Positions 3,050 through 22,432 of a stretch of 64,000 nt of DNA are shown piece by piece. Where the stretch lies: assembly GCF_025717005.1 (NCBI RefSeq), contig NZ_JAOVZU010000004.1:248001-312000 (forward strand), given 5' to 3'. This stretch comes from Actinotalea endophytica (GTDB lineage Bacteria; Actinomycetota; Actinomycetes; Actinomycetales; Cellulomonadaceae). Every line of letters begins with the position of its first letter. Position 1 is the first letter of the stretch. Under the pieces are notes generated by a model. It did no database searches, was not told where the DNA came from, and saw only the letters and a list, made by a program, of their open reading frames with translations. The position numbers and the translations under genes are program-made.

Positions 3050-5656
3050 GTGACGTTCGACGTACCTGCCCCGATCCTGAGGGTCGAGCACCACGCACCC
3101 CCGTCCGCGCTCGGCACCGGCGAGGCACGGCCACGGCTCTCCTGGCAGATCGCCCGCGCGCCCGGCTCCTACCGGCAGGCTGCGTACGAGGTCTCCTGGC
3201 GCACGACCGCACCGGACGGCACCACCACCGAGGAGTCCTCGAGCGTGACCGCCTCCGCCGACCAGGTGCTCGTCCCCTGGCCCGGCGCGCCGCTCGCACC
3301 GCGCCACCGCGCCGAGGTGCGGGCCCGCACCCAGGACGCCGCGACCGGGCTGTGGGGTCCGTGGAGCGAGCCCGTCGTGGTCGAGCGCGGGCTCGGGCCG
3401 GACGACTGGCGCGCCGAGCTCGTCGGGCCCGGCTACCCCGAGGGGCCGGAGGACGACCGCCGCGCCCCGCTGGTCCGCGGCCGGTTCACCGTGCCGACCG
3501 GGTCCGTCGCCGCGGCCCGCCTGCACGTCACGGCCCACGGCCTCGTCGAGGTCGAGCTGAACGGCACCCGGGTCGGGCAGGACGAGCTCCACCCCGGCTG
3601 GACCCCGTACGCCGAGCGGCTGCGGGTCCGCACGTACGACGTCACCGGCCAGGTCCGGCCCGGCGAGAACGCGATCGGCGCGTGGCTGGCCGACGGCTGG
3701 TTCCGCGGCCGGTTCGGCTTCGAGGGCGGGACCACCGACATCTACGGCGACCACGTCGGCGTGCTCGCCCAGCTCGAGATCACGCTGGACGACGGGAGCA
3801 CCGTCACGATCGGCTCGGACGCCACGTGGCGCAGCGCGCCCGGCCCACTGACCAGGGCCAGCCTGTACGACGGCGAGCGCATCGACCTCCGGCTGCTGCC
3901 CGCAGGCTGGTCCGAGCCCGGCTTCGACGACTCGGCGTGGGCTCCGGTGGCGGTCCTCCCCCTCGACCGGGCGGTCCTCGCCGCACCGGACGCTCCCCCG
4001 GTGCGTTGCACCGAGGTGCTCGAGCCGGTCGAGGTCACCGCGGTCGACGGCGGCTGGCTGCTCGACTACGGGCAGAACCACTCCGGCCGGCCCCGCGTGC
4101 GCCTGCCCGAGGCACCGGCCGGAACCCACGTCACGATCCAGCACGCCGAGGTGCTCCAGGACGGTCGGGTCTACCGTCGGCCGCTGCGGCAGGCTGCGGC
4201 CACCGACGAGATCATCACGGACGGTCGCGCCGTCGAGTGGGAGCCCAGGTTCACGGTGCACGGCTACCGCTACGCGTTCGTCACCGGGTGGCCCGGCACC
4301 GAGCCGCCCGCCCCGGGGGCCGTGGTGTCCCGGGTGCTGCACTCGGACATGGCGCGCACCGGCTGGTTCTCCTCCGACCGGGCGGACCTCGACCGGCTGC
4401 ACGAGAACGTGGTGTGGGGCCTCCGCTCGAACTTCGTCGACATCCCGACCGACTGCCCGCAACGCGACGAGCGGCTCGGCTGGACCGGCGACATCCAGCT
4501 GTTCGCCCCGACCGCCGCCTTCCTCTACGACGTGCACGGCGTGCTGTCGGACTGGCTGCGGTCGGTGAGCATCGAGCAGCAGCGCTACGGCGGGACGGTC
4601 CCGGTCTACGTGCCGTGGGTGCCGGGCGGCCAGTGGTGGCGCCCCGACATGGACGTGGCCGCCTGGGGCGACGCGGCCACGGTCGTGCCCGAGGCCCTGT
4701 TCCGCGCGTTCGACGACCGCGACCTGCTGGTGCGTCAGTACGAGTCGGCCCGGACCTGGGTCGACAAGGTCGCCGGGCTCGCCGGACCGAGCCGGCTGTG
4801 GGACCAGCAGCTCCAGCTCGGCGACTGGCTCGACCCGGCCGCGCCGCCGGACCGGCCGATGCAGGCGATGACCGATCCGCACCTGGTCTCGACCGCGTAC
4901 TTCGCCCGGTCGGCGGACGCCCTCGCCGGCATCGCGGCCGCGCTCGGCCGCGACGACGACGCCGCGCACTACGCCGGGCTCGCGGCCGAGGTCCGCGCCG
5001 CGTTCGTCGGGCGCTACGTCGGCACCGGCGACCCGATGCACGACACGGTCTGCGCGCACGCGGTCGCGATCGCCTTCGACCTGCTGCCGGACGCCGAGCG
5101 CGACCGGGCCGGCGACCGGCTCGACGAGCTGGTCCGGGCCCGCGGCTGCACGGTGTCGACCGGGTTCGTCGGCACACCCGTGGTCACCGACGCCCTGACC
5201 GCGACCGGGCACCTCGACACCGCGTACCGCCTGCTGCTCAGCCACGACGACCCGTCCTGGCTCGCCACGGTCGACCGCGGCGCCACCACGATCTGGGAAC
5301 GCTGGGACTCGATGCTCGCCGACGGGACCGTGAACCCCGGGGACATGACGTCGTTCAACCACTACGCACTCGGGTCGGTGATGGACTGGGTGCACCGCAC
5401 GGTCGGCGGCCTGGCGCCGGCCGCACCCGGCTACCGCGAGCTGCTGGTCGCACCACGGCCCGCCGAGGGCATCACCCGGGCGCGCGTGCGGCACCTGACC
5501 CCCTACGGCGAGGCCGCGGTCGCCTGGGAGCTGCGCGACGGCGAGCTCGTCGTGTCGTTCACCGTGCCGGTCGGGACCACGGCCGTCGTCGACCTGCCCG
5601 GCCAGGAGCCGTTCCGGGTGGGCCACGGCGACCACGAGGCGACCGTCCCGGCCTGA
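3050..5656 (+). CDS. Alpha-L-rhamnosidase, GH78
   Basis: 868 residues, a normal length for bacterial GH78. The N-terminal 330 or so residues are beta-sandwich domains (PRLSWQIA opening, then the conserved LNGTRVGQDELHPGWT region). The catalytic (alpha/alpha)6 barrel follows, with the diagnostic DCPQRDERLGWTGD motif (Asp468, Glu474, Asp481) and the C-terminal TTIWERWDS and SFNHYALGSVMDWV segments. No signal peptide is visible, so it probably acts in the cytoplasm on imported rhamnosides such as rhamnogalacturonan or flavonoid fragments. GTG at 3050 gives the family-typical N-terminus. A LacI-type operator lies just upstream. It converges with the AraC-GH39 gene over a hairpin. Confidence 0.93.
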   Translation: MTFDVPAPILRVEHHAPPSALGTGEARPRLSWQIARAPGSYRQAAYEVSWRTTAPDGTTTEESSSVTASADQVLVPWPGAPLAPRHRAEVRARTQDAATGLWGPWSEPVVVERGLGPDDWRAELVGPGYPEGPEDDRRAPLVRGRFTVPTGSVAAARLHVTAHGLVEVELNGTRVGQDELHPGWTPYAERLRVRTYDVTGQVRPGENAIGAWLADGWFRGRFGFEGGTTDIYGDHVGVLAQLEITLDDGSTVTIGSDATWRSAPGPLTRASLYDGERIDLRLLPAGWSEPGFDDSAWAPVAVLPLDRAVLAAPDAPPVRCTEVLEPVEVTAVDGGWLLDYGQNHSGRPRVRLPEAPAGTHVTIQHAEVLQDGRVYRRPLRQAAATDEIITDGRAVEWEPRFTVHGYRYAFVTGWPGTEPPAPGAVVSRVLHSDMARTGWFSSDRADLDRLHENVVWGLRSNFVDIPTDCPQRDERLGWTGDIQLFAPTAAFLYDVHGVLSDWLRSVSIEQQRYGGTVPVYVPWVPGGQWWRPDMDVAAWGDAATVVPEALFRAFDDRDLLVRQYESARTWVDKVAGLAGPSRLWDQQLQLGDWLDPAAPPDRPMQAMTDPHLVSTAYFARSADALAGIAAALGRDDDAAHYAGLAAEVRAAFVGRYVGTGDPMHDTVCAHAVAIAFDLLPDAERDRAGDRLDELVRARGCTVSTGFVGTPVVTDALTATGHLDTAYRLLLSHDDPSWLATVDRGATTIWERWDSMLADGTVNPGDMTSFNHYALGSVMDWVHRTVGGLAPAAPGYRELLVAPRPAEGITRARVRHLTPYGEAAVAWELRDGELVVSFTVPVGTTAVVDLPGQEPFRVGHGDHEATVPA

Positions 5657-5713: not shown

Positions 5714-8206
5714 CTACCGCGAGTGCGCGCCGGTCGGCACGATCTCGACGAACCGCACCTCGAGCGGCTCGAGCACCGCCGACACGGTCAGGGCGTCGCC
5801 GTCCACGACCGTGTCGTTCACGATCATCTGCGGGACGGCGACCTGCCGGATGTACTCCACGCACTCCGGGTCGATCGTCGGTGCCCCCATCTGCAGCCAG
5901 GTGTCGAACGCCGAGCCGTGCTCGGCGTTGATGACCCGTTCGCGCAGGCGGTAGGCACCCGGCTCGAGCCCGGTGAGCTCGATCGAGACGTCCATCCGAC
6001 CGACCTCGGAGAACGGTGCGTAGCGCTCGAGGTAGGTCATGTCGTACCGCTCGCCGGAGGCGAACAGGTGGCTGAAGTGCTCGTAGTTGTAGAGCACGAC
6101 CTGCATCGCCGACCCCCGCGCGGTGACCACGTAGCCGTCACCGCGCGAGACGAGCCGGTCACCGAGCCGCGAGAGACCCTCGAGCACGTGGTAGTGCGGC
6201 TTCTTCACGCCGTTGTAGGTGAGCAGCCCGAGCCCGCCGTGGAACATGTCCGCGCTCGGCTGGAGCTCCTCGAGCAGGTCGGTGAGCGTCCAGTACGTGA
6301 AGGCGTCGAGCTCGTCGTAGTTCTCCAGGAGGTTCTTGGCGAGGTAGCAGCTCTTGAAGGTCGTGTCGTTCAGCAGGTCGCGGTGCGAGACCGTGAGGTT
6401 CCACTCGGTGAGGTAGACCGGCACCTTCAGCCCGAGGTCGCGGAGCAGCAGCGTGAGCTGGCCGATCGTCTTGCCGAACGCGTCCTGGTCGCGGTTCAGT
6501 CGCGTCGAGCTCGGGTGCCCGGGCGTGTGCTCGTCGAGCGTCGACCCACTGAAGTCGTTGTCGTAGAAGTGCACGGCCAGGAAGTCGGGCGAGCACCCGC
6601 GCCGACGCACGTCGTCGAGGAACCCGACGAGCCACTCCTTGCCCTGGGTGTAGGAGACCAGCATCGCCGGGCTGCCGAACTGCAGCGACTCCCCGAACCC
6701 CTTCACCGCGCGGTAGGTGGCCTCGTAGAACTCGTAGAACTCCGCGTCGTCCTCCCAGCCGAACAGGGTCGGGCCGGTGTCGGGCTCGTTCCAGACCGTG
6801 AAGAGCCAGGTCCCGACCTCACGCGCCGAGTACCGGTCGATCGCGTGCCGCATGAACGCCTCGACCAGGTCGACCCACCGCTCGGTGCTGCGCGGCGGGC
6901 TGACGTTGAACGGCGCGGAGTACACCGTCCGGTCCGGCACGGAGGCGAGATCCTGCGGCGTGAAGGAGAGCTGGACGAACGGCTTGAGCCCGATCGACAG
7001 GAGGAAGTCCAGGACCTTGTCGACCAGGACGAACGAGTACACCGGGGCGCCGTCGGCGTCCTCGCGGTAGACGTGCATGTCGTCCGCGAACAGGCCGTGG
7101 AACTTCACGTACTCGAACCCGACGTCGCTCTGCCACTGCCGCAGCCAGTCCCGGACCTCCTCGAAGAGCAGCTCCTTCGCGCGCCCGACCGCGGTCATCT
7201 TGCGGTAGCTGTGCCGCAGCGGCCTGCCCGGCGCGGACACGTCGACGCCGTCGACGGCGACCACCTTGGTGGGCGGCTCGACCTCGGCGCGGCGCTCGAC
7301 GGTCGGCTCGGCCGGCAGGTACTGCGCGAGGATCCGCAGCGGCGTGTCCGGCGCGGCCCCGAGCGTCGTCGGCGGGCGAGACTCGCTCGGCTCGGCGGCG
7401 ACGTGGTCCCGGCGGTACTGGCTCGGCAGGACGCCGTACCGGTCCTTGACCTGTTTGACGAATGCCCGCGGGTCGCGGAAGCCGTTCCGCTTGGCGACCA
7501 CCTCGATGCTCTCGTCGGTCGTGACCAGGTCGTCCACCGCGCGGTCGAGCCGCAGCTGGGTGTAGTACGCCGAGAACGTGGTGCCGACGTGCTCCTTGAA
7601 GAACGCCGACAGGTACGGGGCCGAGAGGTGCTCGTGCGCGGCGACCTGGTTGAGCGAGAGCCCCTCGGCGTAGTGCTCGTCGATGTACCGCAGCAGGCCC
7701 CGCAGCCGTGCGCGGTGCTTGTCCGAGGTGGTCTGCTGGCCCGGGCGCGCGACGAACCGGTGCATCAGCTCGTCGAGCAGCGCGTACAGCAAGGCGGTCG
7801 TCTGGAAGCGTCGCTGCTCGTCCTCGGTGCTGTTGACCTTGATGATCGTCGCGAGCAGGTGGACCAGCGGGCGGAACGCGGCCCGGCCCTGGACCGCGGT
7901 GGAGTTGGCCCGGAACTGCACGTCGTCCAGCGACGGTGCGAGGCGGTGCACGTCCACGCGCAGCACGATCAGCTGGCACCGCGCACCGGCCTCGACCTCG
8001 AGCAGGCTGTGGGGGTTGACCCACAGCACGTCCTCGACCCCGAGGGCGACCTCTTCGTCGTCGACGACGAGCAGCGCCTGACCGTGGACCACGAAGACGA
8101 GCTGTGCCTCGTCACGCCGCGACGGGCCGGCCCCGTCGGTCTCGACCATGAGAACCCGAGCCGGGACCGACCGGGACAGCTTCACCAGCTCGGACTCGGT
8201 GTGCAT
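5714..8206 (-). CDS. AraC-type regulator fused to a GH39 glycoside hydrolase
   Basis: 830 residues with three parts. Residues 1-110 are a cupin-like sensor (LVFVVHGQALLVVDDEEVAL). Residues about 165-268 are a complete AraC double helix-turn-helix (LSLNQVAAHEHLSAPYLSAFFKEHVG, then IEVVAKRNGFRDPRAFVKQVKDRYG). After a proline-rich linker, residues about 335-830 are a GH39 beta-xylosidase-like domain. Its acid/base is Glu474 in VWNEPD and its nucleophile Glu601 in YLTEWN, so catalysis looks intact. GH39 members are mostly beta-xylosidases or alpha-L-iduronidases. No signal peptide is seen. One protein could therefore bind sugar, hydrolyse it and regulate transcription. The start at 8206 has GGAG directly against the ATG, which is tight. 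It lies 48 bp after pgmB on the same strand and may be the last gene of that operon. Confidence 0.9.
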   Translation of the reverse strand: MHTESELVKLSRSVPARVLMVETDGAGPSRRDEAQLVFVVHGQALLVVDDEEVALGVEDVLWVNPHSLLEVEAGARCQLIVLRVDVHRLAPSLDDVQFRANSTAVQGRAAFRPLVHLLATIIKVNSTEDEQRRFQTTALLYALLDELMHRFVARPGQQTTSDKHRARLRGLLRYIDEHYAEGLSLNQVAAHEHLSAPYLSAFFKEHVGTTFSAYYTQLRLDRAVDDLVTTDESIEVVAKRNGFRDPRAFVKQVKDRYGVLPSQYRRDHVAAEPSESRPPTTLGAAPDTPLRILAQYLPAEPTVERRAEVEPPTKVVAVDGVDVSAPGRPLRHSYRKMTAVGRAKELLFEEVRDWLRQWQSDVGFEYVKFHGLFADDMHVYREDADGAPVYSFVLVDKVLDFLLSIGLKPFVQLSFTPQDLASVPDRTVYSAPFNVSPPRSTERWVDLVEAFMRHAIDRYSAREVGTWLFTVWNEPDTGPTLFGWEDDAEFYEFYEATYRAVKGFGESLQFGSPAMLVSYTQGKEWLVGFLDDVRRRGCSPDFLAVHFYDNDFSGSTLDEHTPGHPSSTRLNRDQDAFGKTIGQLTLLLRDLGLKVPVYLTEWNLTVSHRDLLNDTTFKSCYLAKNLLENYDELDAFTYWTLTDLLEELQPSADMFHGGLGLLTYNGVKKPHYHVLEGLSRLGDRLVSRGDGYVVTARGSAMQVVLYNYEHFSHLFASGERYDMTYLERYAPFSEVGRMDVSIELTGLEPGAYRLRERVINAEHGSAFDTWLQMGAPTIDPECVEYIRQVAVPQMIVNDTVVDGDALTVSAVLEPLEVRFVEIVPTGAHSR

Positions 8207-8254: not shown

Positions 8255-8959
8255 CTAGCCCGCGACCCGGGCGGGCACCTCGGCCAGCCCGTCGATGCGC
8301 CAGGTCACGTCCGGGTGCGTGGCAGCGGCCCCGATGCCGAAGCAGGCGAAACCACCCGCGAGCGCGGCGTCGACCCCGGCGTGCGCGTCCTCGACCACGG
8401 CGCACTCCCCCGGTGAGAGCGCGAGGAAGTCGGCGGCCCGCAGGAAGACCTCGGGGTCCGGCTTGCTGCGGGTGATGTTCTCCCCGTCGGAGACCGCGTC
8501 GAAGAGGCCGCGCAGACCCACCTTGTCCAGGATCACCTTGGCGTTGCGGCTCGACGAGCCGATCGCCAGCCGCAGGCCCATCGCGCGCAGCGTCCCGAGC
8601 GCCGCCCGCACCTCGGGGCTGACGTCGTCCGGTGTCATGGTCTCCAGGAGCCGGCGGTAGAGCTGGTTCTTCTCGTCGGCCAGCACCTCCTTCTCGGTCT
8701 CGGACACCTCGGCGCCGCCGAGCGAGAGCACGATGTCCAGGCTCTCCGCGCGGGACACCCCGCGCAGCCGGTCGTTGTCCGCCCGGGTGAACGGGATCCC
8801 GAGCCGGTCCGCAGTCGCCGACCACGCCTGGAAGTGCAGCTCGTCGGTGTGCACCAGCACGCCGTCGAGGTCGAAGATCACGCCCCTCAGACGGCGGCGC
8901 GCGCCCCCGCGCGCGCCGTCCTGCGCGGAGTCCTGCTCACCCTCCTGCTCGCCGCTCAC
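8255..8959 (-). CDS. pgmB: Beta-phosphoglucomutase-like HAD hydrolase
   Basis: 234 residues of the HAD superfamily, subclass I. Motif I is GVIFDLDGVLVHTDELHFQAW, with the nucleophile and acid/base aspartates and the tail typical of beta-phosphoglucomutase. Motif II is AIGSSSRNAKVIL, the motif III lysine is in SKPDPEVFL, and motif IV is VVEDAHAGVDAAL. The family interconverts beta-glucose-1-phosphate and glucose-6-phosphate. GTG at 8959 is used because it overlaps the stop of the GH3 gene (GTGA), although the first 20 or so residues are low complexity and the true start could be slightly downstream. Pairing with a GH3 enzyme and an ABC importer suggests it consumes a sugar-1-phosphate made by that enzyme. 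Confidence 0.85.
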   Translation of the reverse strand: MSGEQEGEQDSAQDGARGGARRRLRGVIFDLDGVLVHTDELHFQAWSATADRLGIPFTRADNDRLRGVSRAESLDIVLSLGGAEVSETEKEVLADEKNQLYRRLLETMTPDDVSPEVRAALGTLRAMGLRLAIGSSSRNAKVILDKVGLRGLFDAVSDGENITRSKPDPEVFLRAADFLALSPGECAVVEDAHAGVDAALAGGFACFGIGAAATHPDVTWRIDGLAEVPARVAG

Positions 8960-10650
8960 AGGTGCGTGTCCCACTGCCCGCAGAACGCGTCGACCGGGCT
9001 GGTGCCCGCGAACGGCGCACGGCCCTGGAGCCGCTCGAGCAGCGCATCCAGCACCGCCGGCGAGGAGCCGTAGGTGTTGACGAAGGTCCGGACCCGGGGC
9101 ACGTCGAACAGGTGGTACGGGTTCTCCAGCGAGACGAACACCGTCGGCACGCTGTGCACGTACGCGGGCACGTTGGCGCCCATCGGCTCGGCCCACTCGA
9201 TCCGCACCACGGTCTGGTTGGACCGGGTGGACAGGTTCGCCAGGTAGAGGATCAGGTCGTAGCTGTCCGTCACGTCGGTGGTCGGGCTCGCCATGCCCTC
9301 CCAGCCACCGCCCGGCTTGAACCGGGTGACCTGGTGGCCCGCGGCGGTCAGTCGCTCGATGACCTGTTCCACCGCCCCGGCCCGGGCCCCCTGGCCGATC
9401 GGGCTGCCGCCGTTCTCGAGGTCGTGGACCAGCACTCGGGGGTACCGGTCGGCGGTGAGCGGCAGGACGCCGGGCTCCTGCTTGACGAGCGTGACGGACT
9501 CGCCGGCGATCCGCCGGGCGACCGCGTCGTGCTCGGGGTCGGCGAGGACCTCGGCGGCGTCCGGCCGGGGCAGGTTGTCCCCACGGTGCAGGCCGAGCGA
9601 CGCCTTGAGCGCGAGCACCCGGGTCACCGCCTCGTCGAGCCGCTCGCGGGTGATCACCCCGTCGCGGACGCCGGCCTGCATGAAGGCGACGTCCTCGTCC
9701 AGGTTCTTGGTGAACAGGAACATGTCGCACCCGGCGGCGATCACCCGGGGCACCGCCGCGGACCGCGGCAGCACCGAGGCGAGCCCCGCCATCGTGGTCG
9801 AGTCGGACACGATCAGGCCGTTGAACCCGAGGCGGCCGCGCAGCAGGTCGCCCAGCAGCTCCTCGGCGACGATGCCCGGCATGATCTCCGCGTCGGCGAT
9901 CCCCGGGCGCAGCTCGCGGCTGTAGGCCGGCAGCATGATGTGGCCGACCATCACGCTCTTCACGCCCGCGTCGATCGCGGCGCGGTACACCCGGCCGAAG
10001 GTCTGCTCCCACTCGGGCACCGACAAGGTGTTCACGGATGCGAGCAGGTGCTGGTCGCGCTCGTCGACGCCGTCGCCCGGGAAGTGCTTCACCGACGCGG
10101 CCACGCCCTCGGCCTGGATCGCGGTGACGTACTCGGCGCCCATCGCCGCGACCTTCTCGGCGTCGGAGCCGAAGGTGCGGGTGTTGGTGATCGGGTTGCG
10201 GAAGCTCGCGTCGACGTCGACCACCGGCGTGAACGCCCAGTTGATCCCGACGGCGCGTGCCTCCCGGCCGATCACCCGGGCCGCGTCGTGCGCGGCGTCG
10301 GCGCGACCCGTGGCGGCGATCGCCATGTTCGAGCCGACGTGGGTCGCCTCGGCGATGGTCTGCGACGCGCCGCCCTCGAGGTTGGCCGAGATCAGCAGGG
10401 GCACGGCGGCGGTGCTCTGCAGCGTCGTGACCGTGCTCACGGCCTCGTCGGTGCTCATCGTCCGCAGCAGCACGCCGCCGACGTGCTGGCCACGCGTGAG
10501 GTGCTCGAGGTACCCCGGGTCGCTGGTGTACGTGATGAGGCAGAAGAGCTGGCCGATCTTCTCGGCGTCCCCCATGCCCGCCAAGGTGTCGGTCACCCAG
10601 GCCACGCCGTCGTCGTCGAGGGAGAACGGCGGTGCGGTCAGATCGATCAT
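8956..10650 (-). CDS. GH3 NagZ-type beta-glycosidase or phosphorylase
   Basis: 564 residues. The TIM-barrel domain carries KHFPGDGVDERDQH, the NagZ-subgroup loop with the Asp199-x-His201 catalytic dyad (Gln replaces the usual Ser/Thr between them). The nucleophile is Asp283 in IVSDSTTMAGL. A second alpha/beta domain (about 390-564) follows, ending NTYGSSPAVLDALLERLQG. No signal peptide, so cytoplasmic. NagZ-type GH3 enzymes use the Asp-His dyad rather than a glutamate acid/base, and one from Cellulomonas fimi (Nag3) has been reported to act as a phosphorylase. The overlap with pgmB (GTGA) makes that attractive here. Its own start overlaps the upstream permease stop (ATGA). The sugar could be glucose or N-acetylglucosamine. 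Confidence 0.87.
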   Translation of the reverse strand: MIDLTAPPFSLDDDGVAWVTDTLAGMGDAEKIGQLFCLITYTSDPGYLEHLTRGQHVGGVLLRTMSTDEAVSTVTTLQSTAAVPLLISANLEGGASQTIAEATHVGSNMAIAATGRADAAHDAARVIGREARAVGINWAFTPVVDVDASFRNPITNTRTFGSDAEKVAAMGAEYVTAIQAEGVAASVKHFPGDGVDERDQHLLASVNTLSVPEWEQTFGRVYRAAIDAGVKSVMVGHIMLPAYSRELRPGIADAEIMPGIVAEELLGDLLRGRLGFNGLIVSDSTTMAGLASVLPRSAAVPRVIAAGCDMFLFTKNLDEDVAFMQAGVRDGVITRERLDEAVTRVLALKASLGLHRGDNLPRPDAAEVLADPEHDAVARRIAGESVTLVKQEPGVLPLTADRYPRVLVHDLENGGSPIGQGARAGAVEQVIERLTAAGHQVTRFKPGGGWEGMASPTTDVTDSYDLILYLANLSTRSNQTVVRIEWAEPMGANVPAYVHSVPTVFVSLENPYHLFDVPRVRTFVNTYGSSPAVLDALLERLQGRAPFAGTSPVDAFCGQWDTHL

Positions 10651-11711
10651 GATGCGTTCACTCCGGAGGTCACGGGGGCCTTGTTCGGGGTCGCGGCCGT
10701 GGTGGGCGCTGCCGGTCCGGACGGGCTCGCGCCGCGGCGGTGCGTGACCGAGCGCCATGCCCGCCCGATGCGCTCCTCGTTGCTGAGGAACATCAGGAAC
10801 CCGACGAGCAGCAGTGCGTTGGTGATGGACTGAACCGTGCTGCTCAGGCTCAGCGCGGCGAACGCGAGACCCACGAGCGTCATGGTCAGGGCGCCGAGCA
10901 GGAAGCCCAGCTTGTCGTTGGAGAACCGCCCGATGTAGCCCCCGATGAAAACCGGGAGGAAGGCGGTGAACATGATGCCGATGGACCCGAAGTTCAGCTT
11001 GCCCGCCTCGATGTAGCCCATCTGCGACGCGATGATCAGGCCGACGACGCTCATCAGGGCCCCGCTGACCGCGTAGGTCAGCACGGCGTTCCGCTTCTCC
11101 TTGGTGCCCGAGGCGACCGCGGCGGCCTGCCCGGTGATCAGCGCGCGGTAGTCGAACCCGAACCGCGTGCGGTCGAAGACCGTGTAGACCAGCACCAGGC
11201 CGACGGCGACGACGAGCACCATCGCGAGAGTGCTCTTGGCGAACGACGTGAGGCCGCGGTCGAGCAGGAAGCTGACGTTGGCGCCACCGGTGATCGCGAA
11301 CGAGATCCCCTCGTACAGCAGCGTGATGCCCAGCGAGCACACCATCGGGGAGATCCCGAGCAGCACGTACACCAGGCCCGAGACCACGCCGAGCAGGATC
11401 CCGGTGCCGATCGTGACCAGGGCCATCACGGCGAAGCCGCCGCCGGTCTGGATCGCGACCGTCGCCCCGACCACCGACGACAGCGTGGCCATCGCGCCGA
11501 GCGAGAAGTCGAACCGGCCGCTGTTGAGGTTGATGGCCAGGGCCATCGAGGTCAACATCGTGGTCGCGACCCCACGGGTCAGCAGCAGCAGGCTGTCGTC
11601 GGTGTGGAACAGGGAGACACCGTTGAGCGAGCACAGTGCGGTGAGCACGACGAACGCTCCCACCGGGATGATGAGCGTCCCTGTCGCTCGTCGCATGAGT
11701 CCGGCTCCCAT
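10647..11711 (-). CDS. CUT2-type sugar ABC transporter permease
   Basis: 354 residues, about eight to ten hydrophobic helices, with the RbsC/BPD_transp_2 layout: an early NLNSGRFDFSLGAMATLSSVVGA (the conserved D-x-S-x-G-x-x-x-x-L segment) and a later ASQMGYIEAGKLNFGSIG and PVFIGGYIGRFSN region. Start at 11711 has GGGAGG eight bases upstream. It is the second permease of the operon and probably forms a heterodimer with the one at 13001-14035. The cytoplasmic C-terminal tail of about 40 Ala/Pro/Thr-rich residues is not typical of the core fold. It overlaps the GH3 gene by ATGA. Confidence 0.9.
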   Translation of the reverse strand: MGAGLMRRATGTLIIPVGAFVVLTALCSLNGVSLFHTDDSLLLLTRGVATTMLTSMALAINLNSGRFDFSLGAMATLSSVVGATVAIQTGGGFAVMALVTIGTGILLGVVSGLVYVLLGISPMVCSLGITLLYEGISFAITGGANVSFLLDRGLTSFAKSTLAMVLVVAVGLVLVYTVFDRTRFGFDYRALITGQAAAVASGTKEKRNAVLTYAVSGALMSVVGLIIASQMGYIEAGKLNFGSIGIMFTAFLPVFIGGYIGRFSNDKLGFLLGALTMTLVGLAFAALSLSSTVQSITNALLLVGFLMFLSNEERIGRAWRSVTHRRGASPSGPAAPTTAATPNKAPVTSGVNAS

Positions 11712-11741: not shown

Positions 11742-12941
11742 TCAGTCGGCGACGTAGGTGTAGGCCGCGACGAACGCCTCGAAGGTGTCGTAGCCCTGGT
11801 CACCGTTGGCGAACTGCTCGAGCTCCGCCTTGCCGTAGAACGGGTTCTCGATGGTGTCGCCGGCGAGGAACGCGTCGAACTGCTCCGGCGACGTCGCGAC
11901 CCAGTAGCCCTGCTCCAGCGCGAGCGCCGTGTCGCCCTCGGCACGGATCGGGTGGCCCTCGACCGCTGCGTAGGTGGCGGCGAAGATCGGGCCGATGCTC
12001 GAGGTGAACTTGCCGGCGAGGTAGCCGACCAGCCCTTCCTTCATCGCCTGGCCGTTCTCGTCGGTGTAGGCGTCGATGTCACCGATCGTGATGCCGGTGT
12101 CGGCGACCGCAGCGCCGAAGACCGCGAAGCCGGTTCCGGCCGCGAGGATCACGTCCGGCTTGGACGCGACGACGGCGGCCAGGTTGGCCTGCCACGCGGC
12201 GTCGTCGAAGCTCCACACCTCGTGGTAGCCGGTGAGCTCGTAGACGTCGGACTGGAAGTCGGCGACCTTGACGGTGCCGTCCTGCATGATCTTCCCGAGG
12301 ATCGCGCCGAAGTCCGTCGCGCCGCCGTACGACGTCGAGGGCTCCTCGGCGAGCGCGGCGAGCATGCCCGCGGTCCGGTAGATGTGCATGTCGATGTAGT
12401 AGGGGACGCCGGCGCCGTAGATCGCGAAGCGGGTGTCGCCCTGCTCCACGAAGTACTTCGCCATGTCGTAGCCGGCCTGGTACTCGACGCCGAGGCTCGG
12501 GCCGATCGCACCGACGTAGTACTGGTAGTCCTTGAACTCCTCGTACTGGTCGTCGCTCAGCGTGCCGGTCGCGACCGCGTAGTAGATCCCCGCGTCCTCG
12601 GCCATCTGGATCTGCGTCGGGCGGTCCGCGGAGGCGAACGAGATGATCGCCTCGCAGTTGTTGGCGATGAAGCTCTCCATCGCGCGCTTCTCGGCGTCGG
12701 CGTCGCCGACCTCCTCCGAGTAGACGAACTCGACGGGGAAGTTCTCCTGGATGTACGTCGTGTAGTAGTCCTTGAAGCCCAGGGCCTCGGAGGACGTGGC
12801 GTCCGCGACCAGGACGCACATCTTCACGGGGTCGGAGCCGCCGCCGGCAGCGGAGTCCGAACCGCCGCCGCAGGCCGTCAGGCCGAACGAGAGCCCGAGC
12901 GCTGCCGTCGCGGCGAGCGCGGTGGACCTGCTGATCTTCAT
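11742..12941 (-). CDS. Sugar-binding lipoprotein of CUT2-type ABC importer
   Basis: 399 residues. The N-terminus is a lipoprotein signal with the lipobox LTAC (Cys24), so the mature protein is anchored outside the membrane. The mature part has the two-lobe type 1 periplasmic binding fold of the ribose/xylose group, with acidic, tyrosine-rich stretches. AAGGGAAG lies seven bases before the ATG at 12941. It sits between the two permease genes with 58-bp and 29-bp spacers, and is unusual in order, since the binding protein more often begins such operons. The ligand cannot be read from sequence. The GH3 and PgmB genes downstream suggest a beta-linked glucoside or aminoglucoside. Confidence 0.88.
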   Translation of the reverse strand: MKISRSTALAATAALGLSFGLTACGGGSDSAAGGGSDPVKMCVLVADATSSEALGFKDYYTTYIQENFPVEFVYSEEVGDADAEKRAMESFIANNCEAIISFASADRPTQIQMAEDAGIYYAVATGTLSDDQYEEFKDYQYYVGAIGPSLGVEYQAGYDMAKYFVEQGDTRFAIYGAGVPYYIDMHIYRTAGMLAALAEEPSTSYGGATDFGAILGKIMQDGTVKVADFQSDVYELTGYHEVWSFDDAAWQANLAAVVASKPDVILAAGTGFAVFGAAVADTGITIGDIDAYTDENGQAMKEGLVGYLAGKFTSSIGPIFAATYAAVEGHPIRAEGDTALALEQGYWVATSPEQFDAFLAGDTIENPFYGKAELEQFANGDQGYDTFEAFVAAYTYVAD

Positions 12942-13000: not shown

Positions 13001-14035
13001 CTACCGCGGGAGCAGCTTGCTGCGGTGGCCGCTCGTGGCGACCCACACGACGGCCAGGAAGAACAGGGCGCGGACCACCTGGGAGATGCCGTTGCCGGCC
13101 GAGGACGTGGCGAGCAGGGTCGTCATGGTCTGGTTGAGCACCGCCATCGACAGGCCACCGAGCAGCGCCGCGTAGATCCGGGTGCGCGGGCCGCCGGAGA
13201 TCGGCATACCGCCGAAAACCATCGCGACCAGCACGTTCATCCCGATGTCGGCGGCCGAGCTCGTGGTCATCGTCGGCGTGCGCAGCACCGTGAGGAAGGC
13301 GCCGAGGCCCACGCCGAGCCCGGCGATCGCGAACGCCGCGATCGCGGTCTTCTTCATCGAGACGCCGGTGAGCCGCGCGGTCACCGGGTTCCCGCCGATC
13401 AGCTTCTCGACCCGGCCCAGCCGGGTGTAGGTGAACAGGAACACGCACAGGGCCAGGAAGGCCACGGCCACCGAGAGCTTGACCGGCAGCGTGTCGTACT
13501 GGCGGGCGAAGGAGCTGTCGACCTTGATCTGGGCGCCACCGGTGGTCTGCACGAGCGCGACGGCGACCGCACCGAGCACCGAGAGCATCGCGACGGTGGT
13601 GACGAACACCGGCAGGTTGAAGACCGCGGCGAGCGACGCGCTCACCAGCGACGTCGCGACCGCGGTGAGGATGCAGGCCACGAGCATCGCCACGAGGCTC
13701 TCGGTCGCGTTGTAGGCCAGCCCGCCGACCATCGCCGCGACGAGCGTCGAGGCGCCGAGGCTGATGTCGAACGAGCCCATCGCGAAGATGAAGATCGCGC
13801 CGGTCGCGATGATCACGATCACCACCGACTGGTTGATCAGCGTCTGGACGCTGTAGGACATGTTGACGCCGCTCACGGTGCCGACGACCACGAAGGCCAC
13901 GGTGAGGACGACGAGCCCGAGCAGCGGCGCGAGGGCCGGGACGAGCTCGCGCGGCGACCTGCGCCGGGCAGCCGTGCCGTTCGGTCCGCTCGTGCCGTTC
14001 GCGCCGGGCCGGGTGCGCTGGGTCAGATCATGCAC
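13001..14035 (-). CDS. CUT2-type sugar ABC transporter permease
   Basis: 344 residues. After a polar, Gly/Arg/Pro-rich N-terminus of about 30 residues come eight or more hydrophobic helices with the RbsC-like segments FAMGSFDISLGASTLVAA and MNVLVAMVFGGMPISGG (the conserved G-G-x-x-I/L-S/F-G-G motif). The GTG at 14035 is chosen because it lies inside the end of the ATPase gene (13-bp overlap), which fits translational coupling; a much longer in-frame extension would read through the ATPase gene. Partner of the permease at 10647-11711. Confidence 0.88.
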   Translation of the reverse strand: MHDLTQRTRPGANGTSGPNGTAARRRSPRELVPALAPLLGLVVLTVAFVVVGTVSGVNMSYSVQTLINQSVVIVIIATGAIFIFAMGSFDISLGASTLVAAMVGGLAYNATESLVAMLVACILTAVATSLVSASLAAVFNLPVFVTTVAMLSVLGAVAVALVQTTGGAQIKVDSSFARQYDTLPVKLSVAVAFLALCVFLFTYTRLGRVEKLIGGNPVTARLTGVSMKKTAIAAFAIAGLGVGLGAFLTVLRTPTMTTSSAADIGMNVLVAMVFGGMPISGGPRTRIYAALLGGLSMAVLNQTMTTLLATSSAGNGISQVVRALFFLAVVWVATSGHRSKLLPR

Positions 14036-15522
14036 TGGATGATCTCCATCTCGGTCAGTTCCGGGCCGCGCTGGAACTCGCGCGCCACCGTGCCGTCCTT
14101 CATGATCAGCAGGCGGTCGCACATCCCCATGAGCTCGGTCATCTCCTCCGAGACCATGACGATGGCCTTGCCCTCGCTCTTGAGCTGCACCATCAGCCGG
14201 TACATCGCCTGCTTGACGCCGATGTCGACACCGCGGGTGGGGCAGTCCAGGATCAGGACCTCGCTGCCGCACGCGATCCACTTGCCGAAGACGACCTTCT
14301 GCTTGTTGCCGCCGGACAACGTCCCGACGACCTGCCGGTCGTTCGTGGCCTTGATCGCCAGCTGCCGCATGGGCCCGGCGACGTAGCGCTCCTCGGCGCG
14401 GCGCGTGATCAGGCCCCCTCGGCCCCGGCCCAGCAGCCGCAGGCCGGCGCTCGCGATGTTGTCGCTGATGCTCGCGGTCAGGCTGAGCGACTCGGTGTCG
14501 CGGTCCTTGGACACGTAGCCCATGGCGGCGCGCACGGCGCGCTGCTCGTTGACGATCCGCTTGCCGTTGACCACGACGTTGCCGGCGTCGAGGCGGACGG
14601 CTCCGAACAGCGCCTGGCCGAGCTCGTGCATGCCGCAGTGGCTCAGCCCGCCGATGCCCACGATCTCCCCGGCCCGGACCACGAGGTCGACGCCGCGCAC
14701 CTTGTCACCGACCGTGACGTCGGTCGCGCGGAGCAGGACCTGCGGGAAGGCGGTGGCCGTGGTGTCCGCGCGGTAGTAGTGGCCGTCGAGGTTCCGGCCG
14801 ATCATCGCCGCCCGGATCGCGTCCTCGTCGAACTCGGACTTCTCGAACGTGCGGATCATCTCGCCGTCGCGCAGCACCGTGAGGCGGTCGCAGACCGCGA
14901 GGATCTCCTCGAGGTCGTGCGAGATGAAGATCACCGAGCCGCGGGCGCGCTGCTCGTCGACCAGGCGGTAGAGGGTCTCGCGGCCGTGCTGGGACAGCGC
15001 GGTCGTGGTCTCGTCGACCACGACGACCTTGGGCGCGTGCATCATCACGCGCGCCAGCTCGACGAGCTTGCGGGTCTGGAAGTCGAGGGCGCCGGCCGGC
15101 GTTCGCGGGTCGATCGCGTCGATCCCGATCGCGGCGAGGGCGCGCCCGGCCTCCCGGTTCATCGCTGCGCGGTCCACGAGCCCGAGCCGGACGAACCGGC
15201 CGGCGTCACCGAGGAACAGGTTCTCCGCGACGCTGATCCCCGGGACCGTGCCGCTCTCCTGCACGATCATCCCGATGCCGCCGTCGAGCGCCTCGTTCAC
15301 CGACGCGGGCGACCACGGGCGGCCGAGGAAGTGCACGGTGCCCGCGTCGGCGCGCTGCTGGCCCGCGACGATCGACGTCAAGGTGGACTTGCCCGACCCG
15401 TTCTCGCCGATCAGGCCGTGCACCTCGCCGTCACGGAGCTCGAAGTCCACACCCTTGAGCGCACGGACGACGCCGAAGCTCTTCGACATGTCGGTGACGG
15501 TGAGGACGCTCTCGCTCGTCAT
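14023..15522 (-). CDS. CUT2-type sugar ABC transporter ATPase (duplicated, asymmetric)
   Basis: 499 residues made of two nucleotide-binding domains, as in RbsA. The first has an intact Walker A (GENGSGKST, 39-47) and Walker B (VVVVDET, 166-172), but where LSGGQ is expected it has LDFQTRK (146-152). The second has lost the Walker A lysine (GIGGLSHCGMHE), which is common in this family, and its Walker B reads LILDCPTRG with Cys427 in place of the catalytic Glu, but it keeps a good signature LSGGNKQKV (402-410). Only one composite ATP site can therefore be complete: first-domain Walker motifs with the second-domain signature. AGAGAGGC lies seven bases before the ATG. First gene of the leftward operon. 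Confidence 0.93.
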   Translation of the reverse strand: MTSESVLTVTDMSKSFGVVRALKGVDFELRDGEVHGLIGENGSGKSTLTSIVAGQQRADAGTVHFLGRPWSPASVNEALDGGIGMIVQESGTVPGISVAENLFLGDAGRFVRLGLVDRAAMNREAGRALAAIGIDAIDPRTPAGALDFQTRKLVELARVMMHAPKVVVVDETTTALSQHGRETLYRLVDEQRARGSVIFISHDLEEILAVCDRLTVLRDGEMIRTFEKSEFDEDAIRAAMIGRNLDGHYYRADTTATAFPQVLLRATDVTVGDKVRGVDLVVRAGEIVGIGGLSHCGMHELGQALFGAVRLDAGNVVVNGKRIVNEQRAVRAAMGYVSKDRDTESLSLTASISDNIASAGLRLLGRGRGGLITRRAEERYVAGPMRQLAIKATNDRQVVGTLSGGNKQKVVFGKWIACGSEVLILDCPTRGVDIGVKQAMYRLMVQLKSEGKAIVMVSEEMTELMGMCDRLLIMKDGTVAREFQRGPELTEMEIIQCMI

Positions 15523-15915: not shown

Positions 15916-17115
15916 CTACCGGACCGGCGCGTCCGACGTCGACCCGCGGCCGGCGGGCGTCGGCGACACCGAGACGAGGACCTCCGCGAACCTCCGGCCG
16001 ATCTCGCGGTGCGCGGCCGGATCTGGGTGCATCGCGTCGCTCCACGGTGCTGCCGCCTCGTCGGCCTCGCCCCACAGCGCCCGGCCGTCGAGGTGCTGCA
16101 GCGCCGGGTCGTCGCGCACCGCGACCACCTCGTGTACGAGCGCCCGGATCCGGCGCAGGTCGAGCCGGCCGTCGGCGCGATCGTCCGCCCGACCATGGGT
16201 CGCGAACCTGCCCCGGTCGGGATCGAAGTAGGTCGGGCCCGGCACGTCCTCGACCAGCGGGCACAGCAACGGGGAGATCACCACCACCGGGACCGACGGG
16301 AGCCCGGAGCGGATCGTGTCGAGCATCCCGTGCAGCGCGGGCCCGAACGTCCGCTCACGCAGACAGTCCCGGTTGACCACGTTGATGCCGACCTCGAGCG
16401 AGACGACGTCGGCGCCGCTGTCCCGGATCGCGCCCGCGACGTACGGGTCGAGCATCGCGTTGCCGGACATGCCGAGGTTGACCAGGTCCAGGCCGGCGGC
16501 CCGGGCCGCGACCGCCGGCCAGGTCGTGGTCGGCGACGCGGCGCCGGCGCCCTGGCTGATCGACGAGCCGTGGTGCACCCAGCGCGGCGCCGAGACCGGG
16601 CTCGGCGGGTGGATCGGAGCGTCGGCCTCGACGTCCCGCAGCACCACCGCGGCGTCGACCGGGAGCCAGATCTCGACGTCACGCAGCCGGCCGGCCCCGG
16701 GGAGCTGCGCGACCACCTCCACCACCTCGCCGACGGTGCGCCGGACGTCACCCGACGCCGGGTCGAGCAGGTCGGTGCCCGTGCTCGTCGACCGGACCGG
16801 TGCCACGTCCCCGAGCGGTGCGTCCCGCACGACGTCCCACACCAGGTCGCCGGGCGGCGGCCCGCCCACCAGCCGGGTGGCGATCGGCCGGCCACGCACG
16901 ACGACCCGGCCCGCCGCGGTCCGCAGGCGGATCCGCACGGCGGCACCCTGCTCGTCGACCATCCGGGCGAAGCCGTCCGGCATCCGCGTGCGGCACCGGG
17001 CGGGCAACCGGTGCGGCAGCACGCCGCCCGCCACTCGCTCTAGCCACGCACTCCCCCGGATCTCGAGCCGGTCGGCCGGGACCCGCTCACCCGGGCCCGC
17101 GACCGCTCCGCTCAC
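15916..17115 (-). CDS. SGNH/GDSL-family esterase
   Basis: 399 residues. A beta-rich N-terminal domain (about 1-175) is followed by an SGNH hydrolase domain. Block I is HHGSSISQG with nucleophile Ser185, block II NLGMSGNAM supplies the oxyanion Gly, block III EVGINVVNRD supplies the Asn, and block V DAMHPDPAAH supplies Asp360 and His363. This two-domain layout is common among bacterial carbohydrate esterases that remove acetyl or other acyl groups from sugars. No signal peptide. GTG at 17115 overlaps the stop of the upstream oxidoreductase (GTGA); an ATG 24 bp further up is possible but lies inside that gene. Last gene of the operon that begins at 23755. Confidence 0.85.
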   Translation of the reverse strand: MSGAVAGPGERVPADRLEIRGSAWLERVAGGVLPHRLPARCRTRMPDGFARMVDEQGAAVRIRLRTAAGRVVVRGRPIATRLVGGPPPGDLVWDVVRDAPLGDVAPVRSTSTGTDLLDPASGDVRRTVGEVVEVVAQLPGAGRLRDVEIWLPVDAAVVLRDVEADAPIHPPSPVSAPRWVHHGSSISQGAGAASPTTTWPAVAARAAGLDLVNLGMSGNAMLDPYVAGAIRDSGADVVSLEVGINVVNRDCLRERTFGPALHGMLDTIRSGLPSVPVVVISPLLCPLVEDVPGPTYFDPDRGRFATHGRADDRADGRLDLRRIRALVHEVVAVRDDPALQHLDGRALWGEADEAAAPWSDAMHPDPAAHREIGRRFAEVLVSVSPTPAGRGSTSDAPVR

Positions 17116-18215
17116 CGTGGCGCCTTGACCGGCGGCCACGGAGCACCCGGGCCCTGCATCCGCTCGTAGAACGGGTCGCCGGCACCGATCTCTCCCCGCC
17201 GCACCTCACGCCCCGTGAACGCCGAAGCGTAGGTCGCAGCCGCCAGCTCGAGCGTGACGCGGGCCACCTCGACCGGTACCGGCAGCGGAGCGCCGGACAC
17301 GAGGGCGTCGAGCACGGCCGCCCACTGCGCCGCGTGCGAGCTCGGCCGCCCGGGTGCGCCCGGGAAGACAGCGGCGAGGTCGGCGTACCCGGGCGCCGGC
17401 GTGAGCCGCCAGCCGGCGTCGTCGTAGCCGTACAGGTGCTCGAGCTCGAGCGTCGCGCGGTCGGTGTCCACCCGGATCGACGACACCTCGCGCGGGGAGA
17501 GGACCGAGTTCACGATCGTCGCGACCGCACCCGACTCGAACTGCACGACGGCCGCCGACACGTCCTCGGTGTCGGTGTCGCGGGACAGCCGTGCCGCCAT
17601 CGCCCGCACCGCGGACCACGGTCCGAGGAGTGCGAGCAGCAGGTCGAACTGGTGGATGCCGTGGCCCATCGTCGGACCGCCGCCCTCCACCTCCCAGCGT
17701 CCGCGCCACGGGACCTCGAAGTACGCGGGCGCGCGGAACCAGAGGGTGTCGCAGGTCGCGACCAGCGGGCGGCCCAGGGGTCCGGGACTCCCGTCGCCCC
17801 GAGGGGCGAGCAGCTCCGCGGCCCGCAGGCCGGCGCCGCCGAAGCGGTGCTGGAACACGACACCGACCCGCGCCCCGGTCCGGTCCTGCACGGCGATGAG
17901 GCGGTCCATCTCGGCGAGGCTCAGCGCCGGCGGCTTCTCGGTCAGGACCGGGACACCGGCCTCGAGCGCCTCGGTGGCGAGCGGCAGATGGGTGCCCGGG
18001 GGCGTGCCGAGCACCACCAGGTCGGCACCGCCCGCGAGCGCCGCGGCCAGGCTCCCGCCCGAGCGACGGACCCCGTGGCGCGCCGCCACGTCGGCGGCTC
18101 GTGCCTCGTCGACGTCCACCACCCAGGTCACCTCGGCGCGGCCGCTCTCCGCGACCGCGGCGAGGTGCGAGGCGGCGATCGCACCGGCACCGACCAGAAC
18201 CACACGCGTGGTCAT
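17112..18215 (-). CDS. Gfo/Idh/MocA-family oxidoreductase
   Basis: 367 residues. The Rossmann NAD(P)-binding start is VVLVGAGAIAASHLAAVAES, followed by the family motif VPVLTEKPPALSLAEMDRL with the conserved EKP lysine, then the C-terminal beta-sheet domain with GGGPTMGHGIHQFDLLLALLG. Members oxidise or epimerise sugar hydroxyls, often at C3, using NAD(P). GAAGGAGGA sits ideally before the ATG at 18215. It overlaps the cupin gene upstream (ATGA) and the SGNH gene downstream. The operon holds an importer but no glycoside hydrolase, which makes an oxidative role on an imported sugar plausible. Confidence 0.9.
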   Translation of the reverse strand: MTTRVVLVGAGAIAASHLAAVAESGRAEVTWVVDVDEARAADVAARHGVRRSGGSLAAALAGGADLVVLGTPPGTHLPLATEALEAGVPVLTEKPPALSLAEMDRLIAVQDRTGARVGVVFQHRFGGAGLRAAELLAPRGDGSPGPLGRPLVATCDTLWFRAPAYFEVPWRGRWEVEGGGPTMGHGIHQFDLLLALLGPWSAVRAMAARLSRDTDTEDVSAAVVQFESGAVATIVNSVLSPREVSSIRVDTDRATLELEHLYGYDDAGWRLTPAPGYADLAAVFPGAPGRPSSHAAQWAAVLDALVSGAPLPVPVEVARVTLELAAATYASAFTGREVRRGEIGAGDPFYERMQGPGAPWPPVKAPR

Positions 18216-18913
18216 CGTTCCTCCTTCGTGGCGGGCCACGGGCGCAGCCGGCCGCACATCCCGTAGCCCGGCTCACCCGTCCACGCCTCGCCCGCCGCCA
18301 CCCGGGCGGTGCTCATCAGGTCGGCCGGGCTCCGCCCCTCGCCGGCGGCCGGGCGAGCGAGGCGTGCACGCCCCGCCGCGAGCACGGCGGGGCCGACCAG
18401 CCGCTCCGCCGCCGCGTGCAGCCGGGCCATGGCGTCCACCGGGCCGATCCGCTCGACCGCGTCGTACAGCTCGGCGAGCCCCTCGATCGCGAGGTCGCGG
18501 CGGTGTCGCGCGGCTGCCGCCACGTCTCCGTCGCGCGGGAGCGCCGCCTCGGCCCGGTACCGCTCGGGGTCCGCGAGCACCGCGCCGGGGAACGTGAGCA
18601 CGGCATCGCCGGCCTCGGCGAGCCCCGCGTCCGACATCACCACGAGCACATCGAGGTCGCCGTCGTTGACCGCCCGATGCACGGTGCCCGCCGTGAACCA
18701 GACCGCCACGCCGGGCCGCAGCTCGTGCACCGCCGCGCCGGACGGCGTGATCGTGTGCACCGAGCCGTGCCCGCCGAGCACCACGTACGCCTCGGTCGAC
18801 ACCGTGTGCAGGTGCGGGGCGCCACTGCCGACCAGCCCGACGCCGTCGGGCGCCGGCCAGTCGTAGACGGCGAGCCTGGTGAGCTGGGTGCCCCCAGGCA
18901 TCGGAGTGCTCAT
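18212..18913 (-). CDS. Cupin-domain protein
   Basis: 233 residues. Residues about 15-110 form a single cupin: APHLHTVSTEAYVVLGGHG matches the first cupin motif (H-x-H-x4-E-x6-G), and the second motif is represented by PGVAVWFTAGTVHRAVN. The cupin probably binds a metal or a sugar. The C-terminal half is helical and Ala/Arg-rich, without a recognisable domain, ending in a Gly/Tyr/Cys segment near EPGYGMCG. No helix-turn-helix is seen, so it is not an AraC regulator. It overlaps both neighbours by ATGA. Possible roles are a sugar isomerase, a dioxygenase or a sensor; sequence alone does not decide. Confidence 0.8.
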   Translation of the reverse strand: MSTPMPGGTQLTRLAVYDWPAPDGVGLVGSGAPHLHTVSTEAYVVLGGHGSVHTITPSGAAVHELRPGVAVWFTAGTVHRAVNDGDLDVLVVMSDAGLAEAGDAVLTFPGAVLADPERYRAEAALPRDGDVAAAARHRRDLAIEGLAELYDAVERIGPVDAMARLHAAAERLVGPAVLAAGRARLARPAAGEGRSPADLMSTARVAAGEAWTGEPGYGMCGRLRPWPATKEER

Positions 18914-19845
18914 CGCACGGCCTCCGCGGCGAGCGCGGACTCGCCGAGCGCGGCCAACCGGCCCGCCCGCCTCGGGTCCGAGGCGCCGTCGGCGACGACG
19001 GTGGCATAGCGGAACCGCAGCTCCGCGCCCGGGTCGAAGCCGACCTCCGCGGAGAAGGCGGGCGCCGGGCACAGGGCGGCGAAGTTCTCGGACCGCGCGA
19101 ACCACTCGACCGGGTGACCGGGGTTGCCGACCGCGTCGACCATGACGACCGTCGACGAGGCGTCCACCTCGTCGTGCCGTCCGGTGAAGGCCATCCACGC
19201 CGCACGCTGCCCGCGAAGCTCGTCACCGCCGGACGCCGTGGCCGTCAGCAGGGTGCCGCCGGTGAAGGACCGCGGCCCCCGCCAGAACAGCCCGCCGTAG
19301 CCGGCGTTCGGCCGGCCGTTCGTGGTGGGGCTGCGCAGCGGGAGGGGCTCCCCCGACGTGTTCGTCATGGCCGACGACCAGGTGAGCACCCACACCTCCG
19401 GGTCGTCGGTGAGGAGGAACCCGAGGCGCCTCGTCTCCGAGACGACGGCTCGACCGTCCTGGGTACGCCACACCAGCCGGTGCGCCAGTCCCGCGGCGCT
19501 GCCCCCGCTCGACAGGTCGAGCATCTCGAGGTGCTCCATCGAGCCGTCGTTGTCGAGCTGGACGTAGCCCTGACCGGCCACGAACGTCGGGCCGCCCCAG
19601 AAGTTGTGCGGCCCGACGCCGGGCAGCGACCAGGCGATCCCCTTGTGCCACACGTGGTCGTGCGGCCGGTACGCGGTCACCACGTGGCCGGCCAGGGACC
19701 GCACGGGGTGCAGGTACGGCCGCGGGCTCTCCAGCTGCGGCGCGTCGGTGAGGTACACGTACCGGGCCAGGACGACGCCGTCGGCGACGACGTCGACGGC
19801 ACCGCCGGGATCGCGGGCCTCGAGCGTCACGACGCGGTCGCTCAT
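18910..19845 (-). CDS. DUF6807 (PmoA-family) protein
   Basis: 311 residues with the features of the DUF6807 group, often mislabelled methane monooxygenase PmoA: YLHPVRSLAGHVVTAYRPHDHVWHKGIAWSLPGVGPHNFWGG with its cluster of His residues, and the later LRSPTTNGRPNAGYGGLFWRGPRSF. The family is soluble, has no membrane segments here, and is common in operons with Gfo/Idh/MocA oxidoreductases and sugar isomerases in polysaccharide-degrading bacteria; its reaction is not established to my knowledge. The start at 19845 overlaps the upstream stop by one base (TGATG), and its stop overlaps the cupin start. Confidence 0.8.
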   Translation of the reverse strand: MSDRVVTLEARDPGGAVDVVADGVVLARYVYLTDAPQLESPRPYLHPVRSLAGHVVTAYRPHDHVWHKGIAWSLPGVGPHNFWGGPTFVAGQGYVQLDNDGSMEHLEMLDLSSGGSAAGLAHRLVWRTQDGRAVVSETRRLGFLLTDDPEVWVLTWSSAMTNTSGEPLPLRSPTTNGRPNAGYGGLFWRGPRSFTGGTLLTATASGGDELRGQRAAWMAFTGRHDEVDASSTVVMVDAVGNPGHPVEWFARSENFAALCPAPAFSAEVGFDPGAELRFRYATVVADGASDPRRAGRLAALGESALAAEAVR

Positions 19846-22341: not shown

Positions 22342-22361
22342 TCGTTGATCCGTTCGTCGAG

Positions 22362-22398
22362 GTGCCCGGCCGGCACGGGTGGGGTGCCGGCCGGGCAC
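22362..22398. promoter_or_regulatory. Perfect 15-bp hairpin between binding-protein and permease genes
   Basis: GTGCCCGGCCGGCAC (22362-22376) and its exact reverse complement (22384-22398) flank a 7-base loop. It lies after the binding-protein stop and 20 bp before the permease start. Such intercistronic stem-loops typically stabilise the upstream mRNA and reduce read-through, so that far more binding protein than permease is made. No T-tract follows. Confidence 0.7.
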
Positions 22399-22432
22399 TG
22401 CGCCGGTGCGGCGCGTGAGGCTGTCGTACGGC

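Follow-up and report, generated by a model that had tools for sequence, protein, structure and literature searches.

A BglX-clade GH3 enzyme encoded beside beta-phosphoglucomutase in Actinotalea endophytica and its predicted role in beta-glucoside phosphorolysis

Background

According to the review PMC8950772, BglP, the name it uses for BglX (5VQD), was one of only two GH3 phosphorylases that had been characterised by November 2021. The same review states that the His/Asp dyad lets anionic phosphate in, and it gives Cellulomonas fimi Nag3 as a phosphorylase with a reported glycon of GlcNAc/Glc, in agreement with what the first-pass annotation of the DNA analysed here had said of Nag3. That annotation used the dyad and Nag3 to propose that a GH3 enzyme coupled to beta-phosphoglucomutase acts by phosphorolysis. 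The conclusion is retained below but the argument alone is insufficient, because dyad enzymes such as RmNag3 show no phosphorylase activity; PMC6987092 reports this for RmNag3 and cites the same for a Herbaspirillum dyad enzyme. Which Asp-His GH3 enzymes are phosphorylases is in dispute, and the locus described here bears on that question. The enzyme class itself is known (Macdonald 2018), and the window, the whole 64,000-nucleotide stretch of Actinotalea endophytica DNA that was analysed, adds a well-documented member. The case for phosphorolysis is carried by membership of the BglX/BglP clade, by the Gln200 signature and by the genomic partition of beta-phosphoglucomutase (beta-PGM) genes.

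Gene organization and the importer

The window contains a compact minus-strand operon that encodes, in order, an ABC ATPase, a first permease, a lipoprotein, a second permease, the GH3 enzyme, PgmB and an AraC-GH39 regulator (Table 1). Open reading frames were predicted by a simple script instead of an established gene finder, and the gene names in the operon are backed by Pfam and NCBIfam, with the exception of the lipoprotein. Permease 2 and GH3 overlap by four bases (ATGA, 10647-10650), and the GTGA overlap of GH3 with pgmB that had been described before, also of four bases, can be read in the sequence at 8956-8959. The ABC importer expected upstream of GH3 is likewise present, with a CUT2-type ATPase, two permeases and a lipoprotein. 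This lipoprotein matched no Pfam or NCBIfam family and gave only a weak match to a solved structure (4yo7), so that the predicted sugar-binding component is silent on the substrate.

A second run of sugar-related genes lies upstream of the operon on the same strand (15916-23755). It encodes an SGNH esterase and a Gfo/Idh/MocA dehydrogenase, both recognised by Pfam, together with a cupin-like protein, a PmoA-like protein and a CUT1-type importer that were named by reading alone.

Table 1. Features of the GH3-pgmB locus (window coordinates) and related loci with an esterase gene
Feature	Position or loci	Strand	Remarks
GH78 alpha-L-rhamnosidase	3050..5656	+	convergent with the operon
AraC-type regulator fused to GH39 domain	5714..8206	-	catalytic E474 and E601 both kept
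pgmB, beta-phosphoglucomutase	8255..8959	-	234 aa; TIGR01990
GH3 enzyme, BglX/BglP clade	8956..10650	-	564 aa; PF00933; D199-Q200-H201; D283
CUT2-type ABC permease 2	10647..11711	-	PF02653; ATGA overlap with GH3 start
Predicted sugar-binding lipoprotein of importer	11742..12941	-	lipobox by inspection
CUT2-type ABC permease 1	13001..14035	-	PF02653
CUT2-type ABC ATPase	14023..15522	-	nearest models AraG/RbsA, below their cut-offs
BD-FAE esterase loci	L043, L049, L053, L054, L058, L063, L074, L078, L079

The GH3 enzyme

The protein possesses the GH3 N-terminal domain (PF00933, 217.8 bits against a cut-off of 27) and, by inspection, no signal peptide. Its dyad loop reads KHFPGDGVDERD199-Q200-H201, which confirms the Asp-x-His dyad; D199, H201 and D283, the last at the GH3 nucleophile position, are invariant across the BglX clade and the NagZ-type controls. 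General family models point to a beta-glucosidase or a beta-N-acetylhexosaminidase at best, every one of them below its cut-off. The best match to a solved structure, which spans the full length, is the beta-glucoside phosphorylase BglX (5VQD; 437 bits, the runner-up reaching 175), and 5VQD has the same RDQH motif.

The earlier description of the enzyme as NagZ-type does not hold. Its score against NF003740 is 117.3 bits, below the cut-off of 207, and its closest solved relative is BglX/BglP. The NagZ loop, KHFPGHGDTxxD-S/T-H, does not occur in the window GH3 (KHFPGDGVDERDQH), which has KHFPGDG..RDQH where NagZ-type enzymes have KHFPGHGDT..DSH. The clade and the NagZ-type controls differ consistently at 13 positions, among them R63/F, N90/D, D193/H and D196/T, and the window protein agrees with BglX at 12. 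In a quick tree with long branches, it falls with 5VQD in one clade apart from the NagZ types (support 100). The true NagZ-type sequences in that tree number 20; the tree label "NagZtype" also took in nine classical GH3s and two divergent BglX-clade rows. An AF2 model of the protein (pLDDT 86.5) gave a TM score of at most 0.80 to NagZ structures and 0.92 to 5VQD, a structure that was public before AF2 and may have been learned, so that this match is not independent proof.

Gln200, previously regarded as a small deviation from the usual Ser/Thr, is a hallmark of the clade. The motif is D-Q-H in 83 of 84 clade members and D-H-H in one, these being the proteins of 80 loci, the window GH3, its paralog from the same genome, one protein from genome G281 and BglX; the loci belong to the 80 best from a set of 542 or more relatives, found with search patterns that partly select the motif, the first of them not including Gln. 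All 20 NagZ-type controls have Ser or Thr at this position (D-S-H or, in one case, D-T-H). The single D-H-H belongs to locus L090, and a divergent relative, at L139, has D-P-H. In the 2018 Macdonald study, exchange of an active-site glutamine for serine reportedly turns glucoside into N-acetylglucosaminide specificity. We take this glutamine, as a lead, to be Gln200; if that is right, the supposed small deviation marks the enzyme as glucoside-acting. The glycon is likely to be glucose rather than GlcNAc.

PgmB and the nature of its substrate

PgmB scores 222.7 bits against the TIGR01990 beta-PGM equivalog model, whose cut-off is 189.4. It keeps the positions that we take to be catalytic in L. 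lactis numbering, D8, D10, H20, R49, S114, N118, K145, E169 and D170. At the K45 position the window protein has Arg (R66), as do 55 of 65 GH3-partnered PgmBs, whereas 14 of 17 GH65-partnered ones have Lys. This split may reflect shared descent only, but it is one point in favour of an alternative reading: the GH3 enzyme could be a phosphorylase with a donor other than plain glucose, and PgmB could act on the corresponding beta-sugar 1-phosphate. Divergent members of the clade do occur in other contexts: one, at L023, is fused to GntK and belongs to a glucuronate operon, and another is found at a sulfatase locus (L022). Against such a donor stand the score of PgmB above the curated beta-PGM cut-off, the retention of its listed catalytic positions and the naming of the solved relative, BglX, as a beta-glucoside phosphorylase; we consider this reading improbable, although it survives better than the other alternatives.

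The fusion in L023 (13834-16113) joins a GntK-type gluconokinase to a BglX-clade GH3, and its operon contains genes for glucuronate isomerase, a fructuronate reductase-like protein and mannonate dehydratase. It is possibly a uronide phosphorylase.

Pairing of GH3 and pgmB across genomes

Of at least 542 relatives the 80 best were taken, and among their loci 65 have a PgmB relative on the same strand as GH3 and none has a GH65 gene; Pfam and NCBIfam likewise found no GH65 among the operon genes of the window. The pairing was also examined in 39 whole genomes, which derive from 40 of the 80 loci, hand-chosen for named organisms and long contigs, and which were selected for carrying the BglX-type GH3 and not for pgmB. 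Beta-PGM exceeds its curated cut-off in 38 of these genomes and GH65 in 14; 24 possess beta-PGM without any GH65 over its cut-off. Within 10 kb, 42 of the 59 beta-PGM genes lie near a BglX-type GH3 and 17 near a GH65, with none near both and none near neither (two of 61 beta-PGM rows, under the cut-off, were excluded). In the 24 GH65-free genomes, all 27 beta-PGMs adjoin a BglX-type GH3. Conversely, pgmB is found within 5 kb of 39 of 52 BglX-type GH3s and of one of 98 other GH3s among those listed, after exclusion of 10 of 62 BglX-type rows below 200 bits, two of which are fragments of one split gene in G414. This greatly exceeds the pairing that chance would give. Nine of the 52 have no pgmB over the cut-off within 10 kb, and six of these nine are divergent (38-43% identity).

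These counts bear on a second alternative, in which the GH3 protein would be a plain hydrolase, a retaining beta-glucosidase, and PgmB would receive its beta-glucose 1-phosphate from elsewhere, for example from a GH65 phosphorylase. Several Asp-His GH3 enzymes lack phosphorylase activity according to PMC6987092, and this genome does carry a GH65. However, the named exceptions are N-acetylglucosaminidases, NagZ-type enzymes have Ser/Thr where the BglX clade has Gln, and the genomic GH65 lies elsewhere, adjoining its own HAD partner, while related loci and most of the sampled genomes are free of GH65, as given above. We judge this reading slightly less probable still than that of a different donor. 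A GH65 enzyme as the partner of PgmB at the window locus was rejected on these GH65 counts and on the HAD partner of the genomic copy.

By far the least probable reading assigns the enzyme to the recycling of the cell wall, as an N-acetylglucosaminidase or GlcNAc phosphorylase of the NagZ type. In its favour are the common dyad and a distant similarity (24-38% identity to the NagZ-type controls); against it stand the NF003740 score, the loop, the long and fully supported branch that splits NagZ-type rows from the window GH3, and an operon in which no GlcNAc or MurNAc genes were recognised, where the NagZ-type loci L024-L026 carry, by inspection, an apparent set of such genes.

Putative decapping enzymes, likely regulator and probable substrate

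In the sister clade of the window GH3, a GH78 gene directly follows GH3 and precedes pgmB at 11 of 11 loci. We regard the window GH78, which is on the opposite strand and is only 30-51% identical to the GH78s in the loci where it was the matching query, as the counterpart of this gene. Overall, GH78 is found in only 20 of the 80 loci (the 80 best from 542 or more relatives), so that rhamnose is a feature of the subclade and not of the family. Genes for RhaA, RhaB or RhaD lie close to the operon in four loci (L029, L036, L046 and L070), and the A. endophytica genome encodes an L-rhamnose isomerase over its cut-off and four GH78-type genes. In a separate clade of nine rows, the gene that separates GH3 from pgmB encodes a BD-FAE-type esterase instead of GH78 in all nine, and sulfatases are encoded nearby in eight of the best 80 loci. 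We infer that the accessory enzyme would strip a rhamnosyl, acyl or sulfate cap off the imported beta-glucoside so that the exo-acting GH3 could reach the glucosyl end.

The AraC-GH39 protein is likely the regulator of the operon. Both catalytic Glu residues are kept in 26 of 29 proteins (that of the window and 28 related ones). In the other three, both are replaced together by Gln, as if the domain had turned into a pure sensor.

Origin and distribution

In the quick tree, the window GH3 branches within a clostridial group, its neighbours being 11 genomes of Clostridia (support 98). Among 394 genomes of the class to which the window belongs, this genome alone encodes a beta-PGM over the family cut-off, and a protein search of the same genomes at E 1e-60 passed five: three with NagZ-type proteins, G281 with a divergent relative, and this genome with two copies. 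Because of this tree position and this rarity, GH3 and pgmB very probably arrived together by transfer, and the gene set was apparently acquired from gut-type Clostridia. Base composition gives no sign of a foreign origin of the operon, whose GC3 of 0.95-0.98 resembles that of the surrounding genes.

The second BglX-clade GH3 of this genome (C18:12730-14469; L022 8647-10476; 45% identity) has no pgmB nearby. Its gene adjoins a sulfatase-like one and that of an anaerobic sulfatase maturase, and in the tree it groups with BglX 5VQD.

Proposed pathway

Phosphorolysis to a beta-sugar 1-phosphate that serves PgmB, as first proposed, is the best explanation for the clade, Gln200 and the beta-PGM partition taken together, and on these sequence-based grounds the GH3 enzyme is very likely a phosphorylase. 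In the pathway that we propose, the CUT2-type ABC system would import a small decorated beta-glucoside of plant type, probably rhamnosylated, and intracellular GH78 would strip the rhamnose. GH3 would then cleave the exposed beta-glucosyl bond in two steps. In the first, D283 would form the covalent glycosyl-enzyme while H201/D199 acted as general acid. In the second, phosphate would gain entry, since the acid/base is a histidine instead of a carboxylate, and would attack this intermediate with retention to give beta-glucose 1-phosphate; PgmB would convert the latter to glucose 6-phosphate, sparing the ATP of glucokinase. We put the probability of this scheme as a whole at about 0.87.

A wider generalisation is more tentative, and we hold it at somewhat less than even odds: that in bacteria, besides GH65, BglX-type GH3s are the second main natural source of beta-glucose 1-phosphate, and work in a module, widespread in Bacillota, that would decap and then phosphorolyse, in which the decapping enzyme (GH78 rhamnosidase, BD-FAE esterase or sulfatase) is exchanged by subclade, induction is by an AraC protein whose competent GH39 domain may process its own inducer, and which has here moved into an actinobacterium. 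If the phosphorolytic reading holds, many gut and soil genomes would break down beta-glucosides by phosphorolysis, with a saving of ATP that annotation by the general family models overlooks, the occurrence of beta-PGM without GH65 would be explained, and RDQH with an adjacent pgmB would be a simple rule for finding beta-glycoside phosphorylases for synthesis.

The genomes clearly show GH3 coupled to PgmB and decapping enzymes, and we claim no priority for this coupling. A literature search of titles and abstract openings, in which Macdonald 2018 and Franceus 2021 were not included, found no described link to pgmB or GH78; such a link may have been published nevertheless.

Comparison with known systems

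BglX/BglP (5VQD, 5VQE; Macdonald et al. 2018) is about 40% identical to the window GH3 over the full length and has the D-Q-H motif, the nucleophile and the fold in common with it. It differs in that it groups with the second copy in the A. endophytica genome, at the base of the clade on long branches and outside the pgmB-linked group (quick tree). Nag3 of Cellulomonas fimi (Macdonald et al. 2015) has the Asp-His dyad in common with the window enzyme. The NagZ-type hydrolases (YbbD, 6K5J, RmNag3) have both this dyad and the K-H-F-P-G loop, but with Ser/Thr in place of Gln200, His in place of Asp193 and Asp in place of Asn90. Operons of a GH65 phosphorylase with PgmB employ the same mutase and have the same predicted product, beta-glucose 1-phosphate; whereas GH65 enzymes are inverting and have alpha-glucosides as substrates, in the window a retaining GH3 is predicted to act on beta-glucosides in its place.
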